Of a DNA stretch of 64,000 bases, positions 1,084 through 44,142 are shown one piece after another; position 1 is the stretch's first letter, and every line of letters starts with the position of its first letter. The DNA is from a virus, in the IMG/VR virus record IMGVR_UViG_3300021405_000007, positions 1-64,000 of that record, one strand, 5' to 3'. Position numbers and translations under genes: made by a program. The notes under the pieces are model-generated. The model had not been told where the DNA came from. It saw only the letters and a list, made by a program, of their open reading frames with translations, and made no database searches.

Positions 1084-1189
1084 ATTGGAAAAACTCTTAA
1101 AGAGGTCGTTATTAGCGCAAATACCGAAAATTCATAAACTATTTTTAAATGAAGAAAAACAAAAAGGGAAAAATAATGATAAAACGTAA
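1040..1189 (+). CDS. hypothetical small basic protein, 49 aa
   Basis: Short frame beginning MKLLIFPSTKKEESKLEKLL and ending in a lysine-rich tail. It is supported by a strong Shine-Dalgarno sequence, GGAGAAGG, 9 bases before the ATG, and by its position: it bridges the end of the preceding gene and the start of the chaperonin gene, overlapping the latter by 14 bases as in translational coupling. Function unknown. It could still be a chance frame, since nothing but the ribosome site and spacing supports it. Confidence 0.5.
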   Translation: MKLLIFPSTKKEESKLEKLLKRSLLAQIPKIHKLFLNEEKQKGKNNDKT

Positions 1190-2774
1190 AATTCTAAGCA
1201 AAGAAGAAATGAAGAAGCCAATTTTAGAAGGTTTTACTAAAATGGCTGATATAGTGGCTCAAACCCTTGGGCCAGGGGGACTACCAATCTTAATTCAACG
1301 CCAAGGTCAAATGCCAAATGGAGACCCCTTAGGCCCAATGATAACAAAAGACGGTGTAACTGTAGCTAATGAGTGTTATGACTCTAATGCTGAGGTAGAT
1401 GTAGTACTTCAAGCCATCAAAGATATATGTCGCAAGACCAACAGAATGGTTGGAGACGGCACAACTACAGCAATCGTTCTAGGTCACGCAATTCTTAAAG
1501 AAGCCCTTTTATTGATAGAAGCAAAGCATGCAAACCCACAAGTAGTGAGAAATCAATTAGAAGAAACCTTAAAAGAAGTCTCTAAAAAACTAGAAGAAAT
1601 GTCAATTCCATGCACCTCCATGGATATGGTGGAGCATGTGGCCTCTATATCAGCCAATGGTGATAAGGCTATAGGAAAACTCATTAGACAGGCTTTTGAA
1701 TCAGTCGGAGTAGAGGGGGTTGTAACAGTTGACGAAGGTACCGGCAAAGACCATACATTAGATATAGTAGCAGGTTATCAGTTTCAACGTGGTGCAGAAG
1801 CTCAAGAACGGTTTTTTAACGACTCTACTAATACCAAATTTGAAGCAGAAAATGCCTATATCCTACTTTATGATGGTAGACTAGAAGATCCTAAAGGAGT
1901 AGCGGATCTTCTAGATAAACTTCAAAAGAAATTAGGACAAACAATGCCACCTATAGTCCTAGTGGCTAATGATTTTACTCCCGATATAATTCAAACGCTT
2001 CTTATATGGAAGGCAGAACTTGGGTTAAGAGTTTGTGCGGTGAAAGGGCCACACACAACCACGGTGAGAACTCAGTTTTATGAGGATATGGCTGTTTTCT
2101 TGGGTGGTTATAGATTCGGCAATGGTAATAGAAACTTAGCTAGTGCTGAATTCGATGATTTAGGACTCACAGATAAAGTGGTAATCACCAAATATACAGC
2201 AACGCTTTATGGCGGCCAAGGAACTGAAGAAGCAGTTTTAGCTAGAATAGAACAACTTAAAGTTCAAAAAACTCAAGCAGAAAGTAGTTATGACGCCAGT
2301 ATTATAGCAGATAGAATTTCTTACTTAGGTGAGGGAATAGCCAAAATAGGGGTAGGGGGATTAACAGACTTAGAAATAAAAGAAGCTTATCACCGTATTG
2401 AAGATGCTGTTAATGCTGCTAAAGTAGCCATTGAAGGTGGTATCGTAGCTGGAGGAGGTTCGGCATTACTTAGAATTTCTAAAGGTCTAAATGAGGACAC
2501 TTTTGGGAATATGATTCTTAAAAAAGCTTTAAGGGCTCCTTTTCAACAAATATTGAAGAACTTAGGTGTTGATGAAACTTCTATAGCAGCGTATGCAGAA
2601 GGTTTTATCGATGAGCGTGGATTGGTCTATGACGGCACTAAAGGATTGATAGTGCCCGGAATAGAATCTGGAGTTATAGATCCGGTAAAGGTTACTAAAA
2701 CTGCTCTGTCAGCCGCCATATCAATAGCAGGATTGATGTGCACAGCTGGGGGAGCCATTATATTTCATGAATAA
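1176..2774 (+). CDS. groEL: GroEL-type chaperonin (Hsp60)
   Basis: 532 residues, the usual length for a group I chaperonin subunit, which forms ring complexes that refold proteins with ATP. Conserved equatorial motifs are visible: ITKDGVTVA, VGDGTTTAIVL (nucleotide-binding and catalytic Asp region), RIEDAVNAA and GGIVAGGGSALL. Divergent points: the usual LGPKGRN loop reads LGPGGLPI and carries a short insertion before ITKDG, and the C-terminus ends GGAIIFHE without a GGM tail. The ATG at 1176 follows AAAGGG at good spacing; an ATG nine codons earlier lacks a site. A GroES-like gene lies about 25 kb downstream in the head operon, so the pair is split. Confidence 0.93.
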   Translation: MIKRKILSKEEMKKPILEGFTKMADIVAQTLGPGGLPILIQRQGQMPNGDPLGPMITKDGVTVANECYDSNAEVDVVLQAIKDICRKTNRMVGDGTTTAIVLGHAILKEALLLIEAKHANPQVVRNQLEETLKEVSKKLEEMSIPCTSMDMVEHVASISANGDKAIGKLIRQAFESVGVEGVVTVDEGTGKDHTLDIVAGYQFQRGAEAQERFFNDSTNTKFEAENAYILLYDGRLEDPKGVADLLDKLQKKLGQTMPPIVLVANDFTPDIIQTLLIWKAELGLRVCAVKGPHTTTVRTQFYEDMAVFLGGYRFGNGNRNLASAEFDDLGLTDKVVITKYTATLYGGQGTEEAVLARIEQLKVQKTQAESSYDASIIADRISYLGEGIAKIGVGGLTDLEIKEAYHRIEDAVNAAKVAIEGGIVAGGGSALLRISKGLNEDTFGNMILKKALRAPFQQILKNLGVDETSIAAYAEGFIDERGLVYDGTKGLIVPGIESGVIDPVKVTKTALSAAISIAGLMCTAGGAIIFHE

Positions 2775-36092: not shown

Positions 36093-36665
36093 ATGGATAA
36101 ATTAGTACCGATCATTGAAAAGTTAATCGAGGTATCTTCAAGTTCAGTAAACCTTTTAATGGATGAGTTACTCAGATACTACTTAATCACTACGGGGCTA
36201 CATTTACTATTAGTATTTGTAATTACAGGGATTATCTATAGATTTCTGAGTCTAGGGAAGAAATTTCTTGATTTGTGTGAGCCGAGTCAATCTAGAACTT
36301 TGTTTAAGTTTTTGTATTCGACTGTGATGGGTCTAGTATTGATTGTAGGTTTGGTATATGCTTATACTGAAGCCAAAGACACAATTAAACTGGCAGCAGC
36401 TCCACATATTTTCTTGATCGAAAAAGTTAAGGAATTGTTGCCACATAAAGAAGTGGAAAATAAGCAAACATCTCTGGGAGGTTTTTCCGTCGGCGATTGT
36501 ATACTTAGCAATGAGAAGACTGATGTGGAAGGAAAAGTTATTGCAGTAACCACAGAGGGCGCTATAATACACTTCAATTACACTGATTCAGATTCGGCGG
36601 ATTTTCTTTATAAAAAGAATCTAAAAGAATATACAAAAGCAGATGATTCAAAGTGTCGAGGATAA
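36093..36665 (+). CDS. membrane protein with C-terminal soluble domain, 190 aa
   Basis: Two hydrophobic segments (LITTGLHLLLVFVITGIIYR at about 31-50 and LYSTVMGLVLIVGLVYAYT at about 74-92) are followed by a soluble domain with SLGGFSVGDCILSNEKTDVE and a beta-rich end. The domain resembles small SH3/KOW-like barrels. TAAGGAG precedes the start; a weak inverted repeat AGAACT/AGTTCT lies at 36056-36073. Function unknown. Confidence 0.65.
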   Translation: MDKLVPIIEKLIEVSSSSVNLLMDELLRYYLITTGLHLLLVFVITGIIYRFLSLGKKFLDLCEPSQSRTLFKFLYSTVMGLVLIVGLVYAYTEAKDTIKLAAAPHIFLIEKVKELLPHKEVENKQTSLGGFSVGDCILSNEKTDVEGKVIAVTTEGAIIHFNYTDSDSADFLYKKNLKEYTKADDSKCRG

Positions 36666-36742
36666 GGGCATTTTTTGTGGAATTGAGATTACTTTTATGT
36701 TTGTTTTACTTAGCTAGGATGATTTCCAAATAAGGAAATAAA

Positions 36743-36904
36743 ATGAGAGACATATTAGATGTGTTAATAGTTTGTTTCCTTGTTCCAATTGGAATTATAG
36801 GTTGTGCCGCATTAGCACTCTTAATATACACAAGTATTGTGATAGGACTATTATTCATGTTTCGCATCAGATTGCCTAGGGAGAAATCTAATGGACGAAG
36901 ATGA
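36743..36904 (+). CDS. small membrane protein, 53 aa
   Basis: Starts MRDILDVLIVCFLVPIGIIG and is almost entirely hydrophobic to residue 40, ending with basic residues. TAAGGA lies 7 bases before the ATG. It overlaps the next small gene by 14 bases. Function unknown. Confidence 0.6.
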   Translation: MRDILDVLIVCFLVPIGIIGCAALALLIYTSIVIGLLFMFRIRLPREKSNGRR

Positions 36905-37034
36905 ATTTATGTTTGCAGTATATATATTTATTATGACATTAGGAGGGATATTAATATTAATAAGAATCTACTTTATAGATGTAAATTTAACTTCCTTATT
37001 CTTGAAACTTATTCCTAAGGAGAAAGATAAATGA
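36891..37034 (+). CDS. small membrane protein, 47 aa
   Basis: Starts MDEDEFMFAVYIFIMTLGGI, one membrane segment, then a charged tail. AGGGAG lies 7 bases upstream, and its stop overlaps the next start by four bases (ATGA). Function unknown. Confidence 0.6.
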   Translation: MDEDEFMFAVYIFIMTLGGILILIRIYFIDVNLTSLFLKLIPKEKDK

Positions 37035-37306
37035 AATATAAATTAAGACAGTCTGTAAGAATTGTAAATTATAATCGATTAACTGAGAGTGAAATTTGTT
37101 ATATATTCCGCAAAATCCCCTTGAATTCTGTAGGAATTATAAGAGATTTTAATTTAACTCATAATAGGTATAGAGTTGAGTTTAAGAGATGTCCTATAAC
37201 CTACTATAGTAGTCCCAATTATATGGTTGAGTTATACGAAGAAAATCTTACAGATGCTGCATTTAAGTTTCCTAAATTAATTCCTATTGAGAAATCAGAG
37301 AGGTAA
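37031..37306 (+). CDS. hypothetical protein, 91 aa (KOW/SH3-like)
   Basis: Basic, beta-rich: YKLRQSVRIVNYNRL, SVGIIRDFNLTHNRYRVEFK. The last part, GIIRDF...NRYRVEF, resembles the GKIIYI...YYRVEL stretch in the next broken gene, so the two may share a domain. AAGGAG upstream. Function unknown. Confidence 0.6.
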   Translation: MKYKLRQSVRIVNYNRLTESEICYIFRKIPLNSVGIIRDFNLTHNRYRVEFKRCPITYYSSPNYMVELYEENLTDAAFKFPKLIPIEKSER

Positions 37307-37310
37307 AGAA

Positions 37311-37517
37311 ATGTCTAACCTACTTCCAGCTATTCTTTGTTTATATGGGATAGGTATTATGCCTGCAGTAGCCCTTTTACATGAGTCTTATTCGCCTGAT
37401 GATAAGTCCTTATTTTTGGGTATGGTATGGCCCATAACACTGTTATTGCTATTATTAAAACCAAGAATCAAATTAGGACAAATTGTAAGAGTCAAAATAC
37501 ATTCATTCTTCTTCTAG
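37311..37517 (+). CDS. membrane protein, 68 aa; 5' part of an apparently frameshifted gene
   Basis: Two hydrophobic segments (LLPAILCLYGIGIMPAVALL and LGMVWPITLLLLLL), then KPRIKLGQIVRVKIHSFFF and a TAG. GAGAGG precedes the ATG. Right after the TAG another frame continues as coding-like sequence with no start codon; a single +1 shift in the TTCTTCTTC run joins them into about 148 residues. So this may be the N-terminal part of a longer membrane-anchored KOW-like protein. Confidence 0.55.
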   Translation: MSNLLPAILCLYGIGIMPAVALLHESYSPDDKSLFLGMVWPITLLLLLLKPRIKLGQIVRVKIHSFFF

Positions 37518-37758
37518 TAGAGAAGTCCTTATAAGAGGAAAAATTATATACATTACTCGTTTCGAACATGAAAATTATTATAGAGTAGAGTTAATTAGGC
37601 CACTAGAACCAGGAATACATGGAACTAAAATCACTGTTACAGACACAAACATTTTTCCTTATAAGCGAAGATTAATAAAGCATTATATTCGGCAACTTAT
37701 AAAAATCTTCAACAAGGTGTCTAAAAGTAACACCTTTCCAATAGAAAGAAAATTATGA
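37518..37758 (+). pseudogene. orphan 3' part of the frameshifted gene
   Basis: In the +1 frame, coding-like sequence with no start runs to TGA at 37756-37758: SREVLIRGKIIYITRF, HENYYRVELIRPLEPG and ending FPIERKL. It resembles the domain in the gene at 37031. Joined to the preceding gene by a one-base shift, it would complete a beta-barrel domain. It could be a real lesion, a sequencing indel or programmed frameshifting. Confidence 0.5.
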
Positions 37759-37827
37759 GTTTACCTGATTTCATCCTCGCTTATTTAGTCGGGATTTTGG
37801 AATAACTATATTTTTAAAGAAACTCTA

Positions 37828-38274
37828 ATGAAAAAAGTAACCAAAGCCTTGAAACAGAAAATGATTGATATAGCTCATGCCAATGGCTTAAAATTACATT
37901 TTATAAAAAGAAAAAGTTATGGTGGTATGTATGATGATACCAAAAAACTGATCACAGTCAGTCTAGTCACCCAGAAAGGGTATATGTTAAATGCCCTTAA
38001 TCTAGTTTCTTGTTTTTGTCATGAATTAGGGCACGCTGCTCAAGATAAGCTACAGACAAAATTGACAAAAATAGTAAACAATAGGCTAAGACCAGAAACT
38101 AGATATTTTATCTCAAAATTTAGACTTCAATATGAATACGAAGCTGATAAATTTGGGTCTAAATTTAAAACTTGGGCTTTCCCTGAAATAAAAGGTGAAT
38201 ATTTAAGTGGTTATCCAATCGAAAACAAGAAAGAAACAATCGAATATTTACTGAAACATTACGAAGGAAGATAA
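37828..38274 (+). CDS. HExxH zinc metallopeptidase
   Basis: 148 residues. The zinc motif CFCHELGHAAQ (His-Glu-x-x-His) is followed about 45 residues later by QYEYEADKFGSKF, the E-x-D third-ligand region seen in M48- and IrrE/ImmA-type peptidases. No signal peptide or membrane segment. ImmA-like enzymes cleave repressors; M48 relatives degrade membrane proteins. Neither target can be chosen here. The short size favours a compact ImmA/SprT-like core. Confidence 0.7.
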   Translation: MKKVTKALKQKMIDIAHANGLKLHFIKRKSYGGMYDDTKKLITVSLVTQKGYMLNALNLVSCFCHELGHAAQDKLQTKLTKIVNNRLRPETRYFISKFRLQYEYEADKFGSKFKTWAFPEIKGEYLSGYPIENKKETIEYLLKHYEGR

Positions 38275-38277
38275 TTT

Positions 38278-38406
38278 ATGTTTGTTATTGTTGCGTATTA
38301 TATAGTAATTGCTGTCATTCTAGGTAATGGAGCAGCGAAGGAAACTCCAAAACAAGATTGGTCAGTTACTCAAAATCACGGAACAAGAGATATTCCGAAA
38401 GAATAA
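38278..38406 (+). CDS. small exported or membrane-anchored protein, 42 aa
   Basis: Starts MFVIVAYYIVIAVILGNGAA, a hydrophobic helix that could be a signal anchor, followed by a polar tail to DIPKE. GGAAG lies 9 bases before the ATG. It abuts the peptidase gene. Function unknown. Confidence 0.5.
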   Translation: MFVIVAYYIVIAVILGNGAAKETPKQDWSVTQNHGTRDIPKE

Positions 38407-38419
38407 AGGTAAAAAAATA

Positions 38420-39011
38420 ATGAACAAAACCTATTACAAATTTACCAATCTAATAAACAGATTGTTTTAAAAGTGATTTATATTTTGAAGACCAAAATAA
38501 TTATACCAATAGAAAGAAAGCTAAAATAATAAATTTCTTACATAAATTTTTTTATTGGCTCAAAGCATTATTTGAATATAGTATATTCTTATGGGATAAC
38601 TTATATGATTTCGATTATGTTTTTATATTAACTCTTCTAAAATATAAACTCTCTAGAACTCGTAAAGCGATCGTCAAAGCAAATGTTATAGTTGATTCAA
38701 AAAGAGTAGAGAAGCAGATAAAATATGCCGAGTTCTTATTAGAGGCGATCATAAAAGATGATTTTGCATACAAAGAATATCTTGCACATGATCAAAAATG
38801 GGGAGAGTTGGAATTTATCTTAGACTCTAAGAAAAGAACTAATCCTAGTCAGTCCGCTCTTAATAGAGCTAAAATTCTTACAGAAGAGGATAAAAAATTG
38901 GAAGCTGCAGAGTTTATAAAAATATTGGAATTGGAGGCAGCAAGAAAGAAAGGTGCTTATAAACGTTTGTGGCGACACTTAGATAAATATATCCAAGGAT
39001 GGTGGGATTAA
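38420..39011 (+). pseudogene. apparently frameshifted helical protein, about 196 aa
   Basis: ATG at 38420 opens 16 codons (MNKTYYKFTNLINRLF) ending at TAA within GTTTTAAAAG. Removing one T continues without a stop to 39011: SDLYFEDQNNYTNRKK, FLHKFFYWLKALFEYS, KRVEKQIKYAEFLLEA and ending YIQGWWD. No start codon exists in that frame until a TTG at 38808, so 38808-39011 alone (67 residues) is unlikely to be the whole gene. AAAGG precedes the ATG. Homopolymer indel or true inactivation. Confidence 0.5.
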
Positions 39012-39208
39012 TGAATTTTAAAAAAAGAAATGTTTTAGAAATAAAAAATGAGGATCTTATGACCGAAGAAAAAGTAAAAGAATTTATGAAATTACTTGAG
39101 GAGGCCTTTGAACAAATGGGGAAAAAAATTCAAACGGCTGTTCTCATAGATGCTTCTAATGAGCCCAAACTTCTAATTGACAATCGAGAAGAAAAAGATA
39201 TAAATTGA
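39011..39208 (+). CDS. hypothetical protein, 65 aa
   Basis: Not recognised. Acidic helical centre (MTEEKVKEFMKLLEEAFEQM), then a strand and charged tail. GGTGGG precedes the ATG at 39011; an ATG at 38999 is also in frame. Confidence 0.55.
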   Translation: MNFKKRNVLEIKNEDLMTEEKVKEFMKLLEEAFEQMGKKIQTAVLIDASNEPKLLIDNREEKDIN

Positions 39209-39224
39209 AAGAAAAGGGATTAAG

Positions 39225-39317
39225 ATGCTGTTTTCTGCATTGTTTATAGTGACCACCATTTATGTGTTATTTTTTCTAGTAGCTGGAATTTTAGCAATTT
39301 TAGAGAATAAAAAGTAG
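39225..39317 (+). CDS. tiny membrane protein, 30 aa
   Basis: MLFSALFIVTTIYVLFFLVA followed by a short polar end, a single membrane helix. AAAAGGG lies 6 bases before the ATG. Typical of very short phage membrane peptides. Confidence 0.45.
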   Translation: MLFSALFIVTTIYVLFFLVAGILAILENKK

Positions 39318-39334
39318 TTAATAAAAGGGGTTAA

Positions 39335-39583
39335 ATGTTTTCAACTAAACAACTAATATTCCTATGGGGTTCAATTGGAGTATCTTTGGGTTTCTTAGGT
39401 CTAATAACCTACCTTAAAGCTCCCAAAACTCCAATGGAGCAGTGCCGTAAAGAATTCGAGAAACTCTCAGGAGAGCAAACACAAACTATAAATATAGTGG
39501 CAAAATTAAGTGGACACAAAAATATTGAAGGGTTTATAAAAGACTATTGTGAATCTGCAATCAAAAAAGGAGAGTATAAGTGA
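39335..39583 (+). CDS. membrane-anchored protein, 82 aa
   Basis: One N-terminal hydrophobic segment (LIFLWGSIGVSLGFLGLITY), then a soluble part with two cysteines (EQCRKEF and DYCESA) that could form a disulfide outside the cytoplasm. AAAAGGGG precedes the ATG. Stop and next start overlap by four bases. Function unknown. Confidence 0.6.
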   Translation: MFSTKQLIFLWGSIGVSLGFLGLITYLKAPKTPMEQCRKEFEKLSGEQTQTINIVAKLSGHKNIEGFIKDYCESAIKKGEYK

Positions 39584-39840
39584 AAGTATTATTGATAAGT
39601 TCATTATTGTTGAATACAGGTCTAATTTATTTAGCTATATCCCTTCATCAAGGAGCAGTCGAACTACACAATGATTTAGTATATTGTACTTCAAAGGATG
39701 ATTACGGTTCAAAACCGGGATATGTGAATGAGCTTATCAGTGATCTTAGATTAGAGTGCATTGCGCAAAAGCATAAATTTCACGGTCTCTTTAAAAGAGA
39801 CAATACATTTTTTGTAGGGTGTGTGAATGATAAAGAGTAG
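39580..39840 (+). CDS. membrane-anchored Cys-containing protein, 86 aa
   Basis: GTG start after AAAGGAGAG. The N-terminal hydrophobic segment KVLLISSLLLNTGLIYLAIS is followed by a soluble part with three cysteines (VYCTSKD, LECIAQ, VGCVND). Topology like the preceding gene; the two may act together at the membrane. They could be spanin-like or exclusion proteins, but no motif supports either. Confidence 0.6.
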   Translation: MKVLLISSLLLNTGLIYLAISLHQGAVELHNDLVYCTSKDDYGSKPGYVNELISDLRLECIAQKHKFHGLFKRDNTFFVGCVNDKE

Positions 39841-40182
39841 CAAAATAATCAAACTGACCAAAGAACAGTTTTGTACAGCTTTAACCCTTGGTTATCATTT
39901 AGCTTTTATAGGCGGTGCATTTTTAGGAATTGGAAACTATATTGATAGGATTGAAAAGTTAGAAAAGCTGCCATTACTCAAGTAGATCGAGTAGAAACCC
40001 TTTCTAAAGATATCAAGACTACTATAGCTAATGCAGAACTAGATGCTAAGAAAACTGCTTCCGAAGTTCAAGAATCTCTCCAAAAAGCAAGCGCATTGGA
40101 AGATAATGCTCTAAAAAGCCTAGATGCTGTGAAAAAAGAACTAGATTCAGTTAAATCTACTTGCGGAAAACTTAAAATTTAA
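39827..40182 (+). pseudogene. apparently frameshifted membrane-anchored coiled-coil protein
   Basis: The first frame (39827-39985, 52 codons) has a membrane helix (GYHLAFIGGAFLGIGNYI), then RIEKLEKL and TAG. From 39964 a second frame without a start continues: AAITQVDRVETLSKDI, coiled-coil residues, ending STCGKLKI at 40182. One extra A in the GAAAAG run would join them into about 118 residues with an N-terminal anchor and long coiled coil. That layout resembles i-spanins or phage envelope proteins, without proof. Confidence 0.5.
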
Positions 40183-40208
40183 ATAAAATACTCCTTTTCA
40201 TAAATGCG

Positions 40209-40224
40209 TGCTATATGGTATAAC
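40209..40224 (+). promoter_or_regulatory. overlapping extended -10 elements before the transporter
   Basis: TGCTATATG (40209-40217) and TGGTATAAC (40216-40224) overlap, about 64 bases before the transporter ATG. Immediately downstream, AGTGA-TAAC-TCACT (40227-40240) is a perfect inverted repeat at the likely transcription start, operator-like. Confidence 0.45.
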
Positions 40225-40287
40225 TAAGTGATAACTCACTAGGAAACTACCTATAGAACATTAAAATTTGTGGAAAAGGAGAACCTC

Positions 40288-41529
40288 ATGCTGAGGGGGT
40301 TTTTACAAAAAATACAGCGCTTTCTTCTGGTTTTTGGCCCCGGCTTGATTGTGCTTGAATGCGATAACGATTTCGGCGCAGTTTCCACATATACCCAGCT
40401 TGGTGCTCAATATGGTACCAACTTTCTTTGGATTCTACTTCTTTTACTACCTATATGCTACCTTTGCCAAGAAATGGTTGTTAGGTTAGGAATAGCCACC
40501 GGTAAAGGTCACGCCGTTCTTATATATGAAAAATTTGGAAAATGGTGGGGAAGGTATTCTTTCGGAACTCTTCAAATAGTCAACTTCTTGACAGTATTGA
40601 CCGAATTTATAGGAATAAAACTAGCCTCGGAAACTCTAGGTTTTGACCCTAAACTAGCAGTAGGTCTTTTTGCTATATGTTTAATAGCTTTAGTATTGAG
40701 CGGGAGTTATTTTGTATGGGAAAAGCTCACTATTCTTTTATGTCTCGCAGATGGGGTTTGGTTTTACTTAAGCAGCGAAATAGGCCCTCCAACCCATGAG
40801 AGCATAACAAACTCTTTCATCCCAAGTATGCCAATTGGAGGGATAACCCTCCCCCTCATATTTCTTTTAATAGCTACTGTAGGGACAACTATAGCTCCAT
40901 GGCAATTATTTTTCCAACAAAGTTGTGTAATAGATAAGAACTTGAAAGCTTCTGATCTGAATCATGAAAGGCTTGATACATTTTTGGCTAGTATTTTCAC
41001 TATATTAGTAGCCGGAGCTATGGTTTGCGTAGGGGTCGTCCTTTTTAGCAAAGGAATAACCTACGTCGATCCAGCACAAATGGCCGAGGTTTTGAAACCT
41101 CTAGCAGGGGATTTTATAAAGAAGCTTATTTTAATCATGATTATAAATGCCTCTGTTCTCGGAGCGATGGCGGTAACCCTTTCTAGTTCTTGGGCTTATT
41201 CTGAAGTAGTAAATTCGGCATCGGGATTAGGTAAAAAAATAACTGAAGCACCCCAGTTTTACGGGATGTATATCTTTGGGGTTTTGCTCGCAGCAGGAAT
41301 AGTGCTAATCCCACAATTACCATTACAGCTGGTGACCATAAGCGTGCAAGTCTTAGCGGGATTACTATTGCCCCCAGCTTTAATATTTTTGCATTTACTA
41401 TTGAATGATGAAAAATTTGTTCCCAAAGAGTTTTTAAATAAACGGTGGAACAATATCGCTAATATAATCGTGATTGGTTTGATGATTGTTTTATCTTTAG
41501 CTTTAATAGCAATACCCTTTTTCTCTTAA
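40288..41529 (+). CDS. Nramp-family divalent metal transporter
   Basis: 413 residues, about 11 hydrophobic segments. Helix 1 reads GPGLIVLECDNDFGAVSTYT (17-36), aligned with the broken metal-binding helix (DPGN) of Nramp/MntH. Helix 6 reads GTTIAPWQLFFQQS (199-212), aligned with the Nramp TM6 AxxMPH site; the usual Met is Ala here. This is closest in pattern to bacterial Nramp-related transporters rather than classical MntH, so Mn, Mg or another ion is possible. AAGGAG 7 bases before the ATG at 40288 fixes the start. A full-length transporter is very unusual in a phage. Confidence 0.85.
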   Translation: MLRGFLQKIQRFLLVFGPGLIVLECDNDFGAVSTYTQLGAQYGTNFLWILLLLLPICYLCQEMVVRLGIATGKGHAVLIYEKFGKWWGRYSFGTLQIVNFLTVLTEFIGIKLASETLGFDPKLAVGLFAICLIALVLSGSYFVWEKLTILLCLADGVWFYLSSEIGPPTHESITNSFIPSMPIGGITLPLIFLLIATVGTTIAPWQLFFQQSCVIDKNLKASDLNHERLDTFLASIFTILVAGAMVCVGVVLFSKGITYVDPAQMAEVLKPLAGDFIKKLILIMIINASVLGAMAVTLSSSWAYSEVVNSASGLGKKITEAPQFYGMYIFGVLLAAGIVLIPQLPLQLVTISVQVLAGLLLPPALIFLHLLLNDEKFVPKEFLNKRWNNIANIIVIGLMIVLSLALIAIPFFS

Positions 41530-41544
41530 AAAAGAAGATTTTTT

Positions 41545-41712
41545 ATGTTTATACCACTTTTAATAGCTTTTTTTGTAGGAACAGCTTCTGGCTTTACAGC
41601 ACAAGTAATAGCTGATAGAATCAAACCAGCAGACCCAACGACCATAGTCTGTGTAGCGACTTCCAAAGACGCTAAACCCAAGTGTGAAGAGGTTGAAAAT
41701 AAGGGGAAGTAA
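41545..41712 (+). CDS. small exported/membrane protein, 55 aa
   Basis: MFIPLLIAFFVGTASGFTAQ forms a signal-anchor or signal peptide; the rest is polar with two cysteines (IVCVATSK and PKCEEVE). It lies between the transporter and the CPBP-like protease, 15 bases after the former and abutting the latter, so all three are probably one operon. Function unknown. Confidence 0.6.
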   Translation: MFIPLLIAFFVGTASGFTAQVIADRIKPADPTTIVCVATSKDAKPKCEEVENKGK

Positions 41713-42189
41713 ATGGGTAAATATATTAAAGGTTTTGCCAAATATATATCTCAAGCTTTAATATTTACTATCCTTAATACGGCTTTATCAATCTTAATGG
41801 GCGCCCTAATAACTTTTGCAGCCCCAAAGCTAGGTCTACGCTTAGAACCTTACAGCGTCGGAATAAATCCTGATGCGTTTCATAAATTAGCTCTTATTCC
41901 TATGTGGAAGTTTGCATTAGCAGGTTTTGAAGATGTAGCTTTTGTACTCCCTTCTCTAATTTTGGCAAAAAGAGACTATCCAATATTGACTGGTATGGTT
42001 TTAGCAATTTGCTCAATTTGTTTTGTGGTTGGTCACCTCTACCAAGGTCTTGGAGCAGCACTCTGCAAGCTTCATTACGTGCCTCTCGCATTCTTATATG
42101 CACGTAGATTTGGTATATCTCGAACGATTACAGGGCATTCTATTCAAGATGTTTTGATAATGGCTTCGATTAGGTTAGGAATAGGTTGA
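41713..42189 (+). CDS. CPBP-type intramembrane metalloprotease candidate
   Basis: 158 residues, four or five hydrophobic segments. Three spaced motifs match the CPBP/Rce1 family: acidic GFEDVAFVLPS (71-81; the usual EExxxR has ED but no Arg), FVVGHLYQG (104-112; FxxxH) and GHSIQDVL (141-148; HxxxN/D). CPBP proteins cleave membrane or lipidated substrates; in bacteria some mature bacteriocins or confer immunity. The missing Arg and the distance from typical members lower certainty. Coupled to the Nramp-like operon. Confidence 0.6.
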   Translation: MGKYIKGFAKYISQALIFTILNTALSILMGALITFAAPKLGLRLEPYSVGINPDAFHKLALIPMWKFALAGFEDVAFVLPSLILAKRDYPILTGMVLAICSICFVVGHLYQGLGAALCKLHYVPLAFLYARRFGISRTITGHSIQDVLIMASIRLGIG

Positions 42190-42221
42190 CTAGTATAATA
42201 ACCTCAAAGGTATTTTAAGAC

Positions 42222-42230
42222 TGTTAAAAT
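42222..42230 (+). promoter_or_regulatory. extended -10 element TGTTAAAAT
   Basis: TGTTAAAAT lies 22 bases before the exonuclease ATG. A TTGACT at 42186 and a TATAAT at 42194 are also present but wrongly spaced for one another. Confidence 0.45.
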
Positions 42231-42251
42231 GATCAAAATTGGAGACCAAAA

Positions 42252-42857
42252 ATGCGTATAGCAGTAGTAGACTTAGAAAATAACACTCCCCAAAATGAAT
42301 GGCAAAAATCATTAACTGAACGAGTAGAATGGGCGCCCATAATTGAGATAGGCGCTGTAATGCTTGATATTAGATCAGGTAAAATAATTTCTTCTTTTGA
42401 AACCTTTGTAAATCCCAATGAAGCAATTTTTCCAGAAATCACTGCTTTAACAGGAATAAGTGATGTAGAAACAACGGGACCAAATTCGGGGTCTCTCGAT
42501 GTAGCTTTAGATAACTTTTATCAGTGGATGGCAGATAATAACTGTAAATTAATGGCTGCTTGGGGTAGAGATTGTGATGAAATTGAGAAGCAAGCTATTA
42601 AATCAGGAATAATCAATAAGTTTAAGAAATTAGACATTAAAAGTATGTTTGATGTTTTAAAAGGTGGTTTATCCGGAAAAAAAATGAAGGGCGGTTTAAA
42701 AGGGACTTTGGAAACCTTTGGTTTAACCTTTGAAGGGAAACAGCATAGAGCCAAAGTAGATGCTTTAAATACAGCAAAACTATTATTTCACGCTAAAGAA
42801 ATTTCACTTTACGCCGATAAGATTAAGGAACATAAGTTTAGAGGATTGCAGGAGTGA
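42252..42857 (+). CDS. DnaQ-like DEDD 3'-5' exonuclease
   Basis: 201 residues. Exo I: IAVVDLEN (D-x-E, residues 3-10), with IIEIGAVMLDIRSGK and ITALTGISDVETTGP typical of the DEDDh group. Exo II lies around LMAAWGRDCDEIEK, and Exo III is HRAKVDALNTAKLL (His-x4-Asp). It degrades single strands of DNA or RNA from the 3' end. Its operon then carries small zinc proteins and peptide deformylase, suggesting host takeover rather than replication. Confidence 0.85.
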   Translation: MRIAVVDLENNTPQNEWQKSLTERVEWAPIIEIGAVMLDIRSGKIISSFETFVNPNEAIFPEITALTGISDVETTGPNSGSLDVALDNFYQWMADNNCKLMAAWGRDCDEIEKQAIKSGIINKFKKLDIKSMFDVLKGGLSGKKMKGGLKGTLETFGLTFEGKQHRAKVDALNTAKLLFHAKEISLYADKIKEHKFRGLQE

Positions 42858-42875
42858 GAACATTGGAGACATACT

Positions 42876-43073
42876 ATGAAAGTATACTGGAAGTGTTCAT
42901 GTGGCAAAGAAGGAAGTGAAATAGAAAAATCTTCTATCATAGGTATTACTGAATTTGGAGTTTGGTTCAACTGTGAATGTAAGTCTACTCATCTAATCCG
43001 ACCAGAAGCTATTGAAAAATCAGACTTTGATTGCCCTTTGATAAATAAAGTTAATAATGCAAATGACTTATAA
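42876..43073 (+). CDS. small zinc-ribbon-like protein, 65 aa
   Basis: Two Cys pairs, WKCSCGKEG and FNCECKST, about 23 residues apart suggest a zinc ribbon. It overlaps the peptide deformylase gene by 17 bases. Function unknown. Confidence 0.6.
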   Translation: MKVYWKCSCGKEGSEIEKSSIIGITEFGVWFNCECKSTHLIRPEAIEKSDFDCPLINKVNNANDL

Positions 43074-43536
43074 ACTTCAAAAACTTGGCGCACCCATCCT
43101 TCGAAAAAAAGTAGATAGAGTTTTAAAGTTCAAACCTAAAGAACTCGAACAACTTTTCGAAGAGATGGTTTATATTATGATCTTAAATCAAGGTATTGGG
43201 TTAGCCGCTAACCAAATAGGCCTTAATAAACAGATCTTTATAGCAGCTTTAGAAACTTCACAAGGTATAATAACTCCTCGAATGTTCATAAATCCAACAA
43301 TGTTCACACTCAGCGAACAAAAATATGAGGCTTTCGAAGAAGGTTGTTTATCAGTAAATAAAGATAAAAGAATTTCAGACTTCCGTTCTAACTCCTTATC
43401 TCTGCACTATCAAGATACTCACGGTTTAGTCAAAACAGAATCTTTTTCAGGATTCAATGCAGTTATTATCCAACATGAATGCGATCACCTAGAAGGTAAG
43501 CTCTTCATAGATTACACTAATCCACATAAATGTTAG
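43057..43536 (+). CDS. def: peptide deformylase
   Basis: 159 residues. All three signature motifs are present: GIGLAANQIG (46-55), EGCLSV (95-100, metal-binding Cys) and QHECDHLEG (139-147, the HExxH zinc site). It removes the formyl group from nascent proteins. Phage deformylases are known, notably in cyanophages, where they are thought to favour turnover of short-lived host proteins. Compact form with no C-terminal extension. An ATG two codons later (43063) is possible. Confidence 0.93.
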   Translation: MQMTYKLQKLGAPILRKKVDRVLKFKPKELEQLFEEMVYIMILNQGIGLAANQIGLNKQIFIAALETSQGIITPRMFINPTMFTLSEQKYEAFEEGCLSVNKDKRISDFRSNSLSLHYQDTHGLVKTESFSGFNAVIIQHECDHLEGKLFIDYTNPHKC

Positions 43537-43579: not shown

Positions 43580-43888
43580 ATGATTACAGTACATTGCAAA
43601 TGCAAAAAATCTATAATGAAATTTCAGCATCTTAAAGAAGGTCATATCACTGAATACGAAGGTAGTTGTTGCAAAGACCTACAAAAACAACAACTTATGG
43701 AAGAGGCTCCAGTTTCTCAACCAACCAAACTATCTGAAAAAGATGCTGAAGTTTTTATGAAGGTTTTAGAAAATCCTCCAGAACCTAGCGAAGCTTTAAA
43801 AGCGCTCATGGCAGATCAAGAAAAAGTTGATACAGAAAAAACCAAGAAAAAATTCACTTACTTCGAACCTAAAGGAAGTAAGAAATGA
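43580..43888 (+). CDS. Cys-rich protein with TacA/DUF1778-like antitoxin tail
   Basis: 102 residues. The N-terminal part has a metal-site-like CKCKKS...CCKDL. The C-terminal part LSEKDAEVFMKVLENPPEPS followed by EALKALM matches the toxin-binding tail of DUF1778/TacA antitoxins (LxxxDxxxFxxLLxNPPxPxxxLxxL). The usual ribbon-helix-helix DNA-binding domain is absent, and no GNAT acetyltransferase toxin gene is adjacent. It may neutralise a host TacT-like toxin; this is inference from the motif. Confidence 0.55.
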   Translation: MITVHCKCKKSIMKFQHLKEGHITEYEGSCCKDLQKQQLMEEAPVSQPTKLSEKDAEVFMKVLENPPEPSEALKALMADQEKVDTEKTKKKFTYFEPKGSKK

Positions 43889-44142
43889 TACCTGAAATAA
43901 AGCAATTTTATACTTATGATGTTGATCTTGCAGCTTTTTTAATGGTTCAAGGTCTAAAATTTTACGAATGCAAGTCAGACCCAATTGATAAATCTAGAGC
44001 TCTTTTTTGCTTTTTTGATGAGAGAGATATAGGACGGGATTTAGAGCGAAATTGGATGTCTAGTGATACTAAGAGATTCTCTGATTTCCGAAAATACCTT
44101 TTAAGAGAAGTACATAGGGTAGTTAAGCAAGGTATAAAATAA
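43885..44142 (+). CDS. DUF5659-like small protein, 85 aa
   Basis: The pattern FYTYDVDLAAFLMVQGLKFY followed by a CFFDERD strand and SDFRKYLLREVHRVV matches the small DUF5659 family found in phages and mobile elements, function unknown. It overlaps the antitoxin-like gene by four bases. Confidence 0.6.
   Translation: MIPEIKQFYTYDVDLAAFLMVQGLKFYECKSDPIDKSRALFCFFDERDIGRDLERNWMSSDTKRFSDFRKYLLREVHRVVKQGIK

Follow-up and report, generated by a model that had tools for sequence, protein, structure and literature searches.

The stretch of DNA analysed here (the window, 64,000 nucleotides) comes from virus record IMGVR_UViG_3300021405_000007 (108,106 bases), whose two ends share a 126-bp direct repeat and which looks like a complete bacterial virus genome of ~108 kb. 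At the locus of interest, an uninterrupted frame of 413 amino acids, with an ATG start and AAGGAG ahead of it, encodes a transporter of the Nramp family, followed by two small genes (Table 1). An alternative GTG start at 40270, 18 bases before the ATG, would give a protein of 419 amino acids; residue numbers refer to this longer form (minus 6 for the ATG form). The Nramp profile PF01566 matched the transporter at E 7.7e-64 (216.4 bits, cut-off 29.8) over positions 2-349 of 357, which bears out the intact, full-length Nramp reported in the initial annotation, and the two sites singled out there, DNDFG and TIAPWQLFFQQS, are both read in the translation.

Table 1. Features at the transporter locus (window coordinates)
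Feature	Position	Strand	Basis
NRMT-like Nramp transporter gene	40288..41529	+	PF01566, 7qia EleNRMT match, AF2 fold
TM1 ion-site motif D34-F35-G36-A37	40369..40380	+	aligned to D55xxG58 of EleNRMT
TM6 ion-site motif T206-T-I-A209-P-W211	40885..40902	+	aligned to T224/A227/W229 of EleNRMT
55-aa protein, one N-terminal TM segment	41545..41712	+	ORF, TM peak 1-19, codon-position GC
158-aa membrane protein, ORFan	41713..42189	+	no relatives in searches; PF02517 below cut-off
85-aa DUF5659-like gene	43885..44142	+	PF18903 E 3.4e-5, barely over its cut-off

The locus in its phage genome

Both small genes are probably real, having ribosome-binding sites and codon-position GC like that of their neighbours, with the stop of the first abutting the start of the second. 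The 55-aa product is the small membrane-anchored protein that had been described after the transporter; it had no family match in profile searches and no homologue in the sister phage introduced below, and by eye is unlike the 72-aa TM gene found downstream of cellular relatives of the transporter. The 158-aa product had been read as a CPBP protein with four to five helices. It does contain the ED, FVVGH and GHSIQD strings, and its FxxxH and HxxxD strings are shared with the CPBP/Rce1-like intramembrane proteases (PF02517), but it reads EDVAF in place of EExxxR, the first CPBP motif, and the profile score reaches half of the cut-off (11.1 against 22.4 bits, E 0.51). PF02517 had no match genome-wide either, a simple hydropathy scan shows three TM peaks, and the single-sequence structure model (pLDDT 53) is too poor to use. 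Profile, homology and structure searches thus gave no support for a CPBP protease, and that identity was dropped.

Being adjacent on the same strand, with two of them abutting, the three genes might form a module in which the transporter works jointly with the small anchor protein and a CPBP membrane protease. We regard this as very improbable, because the CPBP match is not significant, the 158-aa protein is without relatives in viral contigs (exact-pattern scan), INPHARED or PLSDB, and the three-gene set does not recur in the sister phage, whose genome encodes the transporter but nowhere either of the small genes. Since neither small gene has a homologue there, the transporter is the conserved unit.

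The transporter is surrounded by portal, head protease, major capsid, connector and sheath genes, together with genes for a DNA polymerase, a sigma factor and a GroEL-like chaperonin. In a sister phage record (108,914 bases, 97-bp end repeat), dozens of genes recur in matching blocks, among them a transporter copy that is 51% identical, as compared with 55% for TerL, 52% for the DNA polymerase and 47% for the portal. The DUF5659-like gene lies 2.4 kb downstream of the window transporter and directly downstream of the sister transporter, where its product (also 85 aa) is 59% identical to the window homologue. This orthologue beside the same DUF5659 gene indicates that the transporter was inherited from a common phage ancestor; judged by its sequence context, it is a resident phage gene, as had been proposed. 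That it represents an assembly chimera or stray host DNA, the possibility against which the initial annotation had hedged, is practically negligible: the gene has a cellular origin, but phage genes lie on both sides in a genome with end repeats, its orthologue in a separately assembled phage adjoins the same neighbour, its codon-position GC resembles that of the rest of the phage, and its closest cellular match is merely 57% identical. A scan of viral contigs for TerL found no relatives (one scan), and a promoter scan returned 18 sites against 14.6 expected by chance.

The transporter sequence also shows signs of constraint. The cellular subclade described below has 130 invariant positions, of which 111 are kept in the window phage and 115 in the sister, as against about 50-57% overall identity; differences between the two phage copies at codon positions 1, 2 and 3 stand at 0.43, 0.24 and 0.64. 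We omitted dN/dS because synonymous change is saturated between the two copies. These patterns support a protein that is constrained rather than decaying.

Several other genes of this phage deserve record. The GroEL-like chaperonin (window 1149-2774; phrog_5725, E 2e-106) is 58% identical in the sister, and window 36093-39985 holds a series of small membrane proteins that match no family and may serve in lysis or membrane modification. A carrier of the BT1 (folate/biopterin transporter) family (L085:5176-6558, minus strand, genome about 101,176-102,558; E 2e-28) is also present in the sister at 40% identity, and a ThyX-like protein, identified by eye, is encoded at L083:3528-4232; folate supply is a possible link between the two. 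A class II-like (B12-dependent) ribonucleotide reductase (L083:5613-7250, minus strand) is 76% identical in the sister, against 64% or less for other large shared proteins, possibly reflecting a recent exchange. A peptide deformylase (window 43057-43536, E 1e-38) and a 2OG-Fe(II) oxygenase (L083:2480-3484, minus strand, E 4e-17) have no match in the sister phage; enzymes of both kinds commonly use Fe2+.

Family branch and ion site

Sequence, fold and phylogeny converge on the branch of the Nramp family known as NRMTs. The best match among solved structures by sequence is 7qia, EleNRMT (E 4.6e-55, runner-up 8e-13), and an AF2 model (14 natural sequences as input, pLDDT 89) has the LeuT-type fold of solved Nramps and finds EleNRMT as its best Foldseek match (TM-score 0.83, E 6e-20); MntH structures score E 4.5e-13 or weaker. 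The rooted tree separates the MntH outgroup at 100/100, with the phage protein and EleNRMT on the NRMT side, and in it the window and sister copies form one clade (99/99) inside a 16-row subclade (100/99) drawn mainly from Terriglobia/Acidobacteriota, plus Armatimonadota and others; a preliminary quick tree had given long-branch flags. Reading the host from this Terriglobia-rich subclade was tried and rejected, the phage being of ~35% GC and roughly equidistant from all subclade members.

Alignment with EleNRMT and MntH gives the phage ion site as D-x-x-A/T-x-x-A. Its T206, A209 and W211 align to A, M and H of MntH; the MntH methionine, the TM1 asparagine and both TM6 histidines are replaced, as in NRMTs (N to A, M to A, H to W at W211, H to Q at Q216), and the MntH TM3 Asp is Val, while E112 in TM3 and Q360 in TM10 are kept. 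D34, T206, A209, E112, W211, Q216 and Q360 all align with EleNRMT residues discussed by Ramanadane et al. (PMC8806188), who defined the NRMT signature as DxxG-TxxA/T, described the site Met as a soft ligand favouring transition metals, and found that EleNRMT carries Mg2+ and Mn2+ without proton coupling. Our results uphold the earlier suggestion, made from the Met-to-Ala change, of an ion preference different from that of MntH; the assumption that metal would be imported with protons finds no support, because, as in EleNRMT, the two histidines of TM6 and the Asp of TM3 have been replaced (PMC8806188).

The TM6 motif and the lost proton-path histidines conform to published NRMTs, and the single deviation from the signature is A37 in TM1, where NRMTs have Gly, so that we file the protein, from its sequence, as an NRMT-like variant rather than a signature NRMT. 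The change from Gly to Ala is not phage-specific, DxxA being present in 35/35 full-length members of the nearest cellular subclade; cellular relatives have DAGA or DAGG at the TM1 site. F35, by comparison, occurs in this phage only within the compared set (DNDFG, with DNDAG in all others). MntH identity was ruled out by ion site, tree and score, the NCBIfam model for classical MntH (NF001923) giving 78 bits against a cut-off of 430. On sequence and model evidence, then, the transporter is an Nramp of the NRMT (Mg2+) branch and not MntH-like.

Nramp genes in other viruses

Genes for transporters of the NRMT branch were found in just two other virus genomes, the sister phage and a third contig (61,782 bases) whose NRMT has DxxG-TxxA. 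Like jumbo phages, this contig has multisubunit RNA polymerase genes, in two sets, and a gene for a baseplate hub; topoisomerase-like genes are present too (further parts at L137-L140, the contig itself being L133), and its NRMT adjoins an anaerobic-type ribonucleotide reductase gene that seemingly contains an intein. A single phage clade for all three viral NRMTs was rejected (p 0.016), which makes at least two acquisitions likely, and the unrelated jumbo-type phage likely gained its NRMT separately. Three is a minimum, because the collection scans need exact short patterns.

Searches elsewhere were largely empty. The transporter had no PHROG family match, and the predicted viral proteins of BFVD held no Nramp, only distant amino-acid-permease-like folds. 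Twelve INPHARED records match MntH, all unannotated, most of them fragments of 2-34 kb and one tagged UNVERIFIED; none is close to the window protein, and we do not count them as known phage Nramps. A truncated mntH on an IMG/VR contig was likewise set aside, since the contig looks like a prophage-host junction. In the open literature, with subscription papers mostly outside scope, we found no report of Nramp, MntH or Mg2+ transporters in phages.

Substrate, role and nearest known systems

Divalent cations are important for condensing DNA, for stable capsids and for the synthesis of nucleic acids, and phages are usually assumed to depend on their host for them. By the mechanism that we infer, a gene acquired from a bacterium would encode a protein that inserts into the host inner membrane and admits partly hydrated Mg2+, with the membrane potential as driver and without proton co-transport; cell Mg2+ would thereby be kept or raised during large-scale DNA synthesis and packaging, to the benefit of the phage. 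Expression may come late in infection, as the position of the transporter among head and tail genes on the same strand suggests. Taken whole, the proposal of a resident, functional phage importer of divalent metals, of bacterial origin, belonging to the DxxA/TxxA subclade of the NRMT branch and passing hydrated Mg2+, stands evenly poised between right and wrong.

The same even balance applies to Mg2+ as the putative main substrate. Against it stand A37 in place of the NRMT Gly, the bulky F35 unique to this phage, and the finding that an MntH site converted to NRMT residues gave no Mg2+ transport (PMC8806188). An M-box riboswitch or an MgtE-like partner is common, though not universal, among NRMTs; Rfam had no M-box match at 38000-43500 and no MgtE-like gene was matched among the scanned neighbours. 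A metal-sensing repressor of the CsoR family is encoded near about a third of the cellular relatives, and MgtC near only two.

Sequence alone cannot tell which substrate is carried, and Mn2+ is a serious rival to Mg2+. The same transporter might, during infection, carry mainly Mn2+ or a different transition metal, Fe2+ for example, and so supply metal enzymes or relieve oxidative stress. EleNRMT carries Mn2+ too (PMC8806188), and NrmT of Acidobacterium capsulatum rescued Mn2+ transport and Mg2+ transport only weakly, making it mainly a Mn2+ transporter (PMC4072509), although that protein may lie outside the DxxA subclade. The CsoR-family repressors near cellular DxxA relatives and the oxygenase and deformylase encoded by the phage point the same way. 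The site, however, is without the soft Met that favours transition metals (PMC8806188), and the ribonucleotide reductase of the phage resembles class II enzymes, which need cobalamin and not Mn/Fe. We consider a transition-metal cargo possible but on the unlikely side.

A further reading, in which the protein is no longer mainly a transporter and alters the membrane instead, for example through superinfection exclusion or a lysis-linked ion leak, could draw on the lysozyme gene ~1.3 kb from the sister phage's transporter, the several small one-TM genes near the transporter in the window, and the unusual F35. It is improbable, since the ion-site and family-invariant residues are retained in both phages, and the independent uptake of the NRMT branch by an unrelated phage points to transport itself. 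Superinfection exclusion, one of the roles offered in the initial annotation, gained no support.

Returning to Mg2+ import, we suggest tentatively, and as a reading with somewhat less than an even chance, that phages took up NRMT-type Mg2+ carriers at least two times and thereby control cell Mg2+ during genome production and packaging. If true, this would be a viral takeover of ion supply, of which we found no description for bacterial viruses. With a Mg2+-branch importer kept in two diverged phages and apparently gained separately by a third, phage Mg2+ management becomes directly testable, and the DxxA plus F35 variant of the ion site should be useful for studies of Mg2+/Mn2+ selectivity in SLC11 proteins.

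Nramp transporters themselves are nothing new; the novelty lies in the DxxA/F35 site and in the occurrence in a phage. Classical Nramps (MntH; Mn2+, Fe2+, H+-coupled) share the profile and fold, but Terriglobus MntH is only 19% identical, and the phage protein is without DPGN, the A-x-x-M methionine and both TM6 histidines. NRMT/NrmT proteins (EleNRMT, CabNRMT; PMC8806188, PMC4072509) are nearest by fold and sequence, with A for the site Met, T in TM6, the conserved TM3 Glu and TM10 Gln, and W and a non-His in place of two proton-path histidines; the phage protein differs in being ~30% identical to EleNRMT, in having Ala at the fourth and Phe at the second TM1 site position, and in its phage-borne setting without MgtE-like partner or M-box. 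The cellular DxxA NRMT-like proteins (Terriglobia, Armatimonadota and others; L003-L038) are 48-57% identical and match at all site residues except F35. Directly downstream of nearly every one of their genes lies a ~72-aa one-TM gene without Pfam match, a candidate transporter partner, and sometimes a CsoR-family repressor lies upstream; in contrast, neither adjoins the phage genes, and the candidate partner is missing from the phages.
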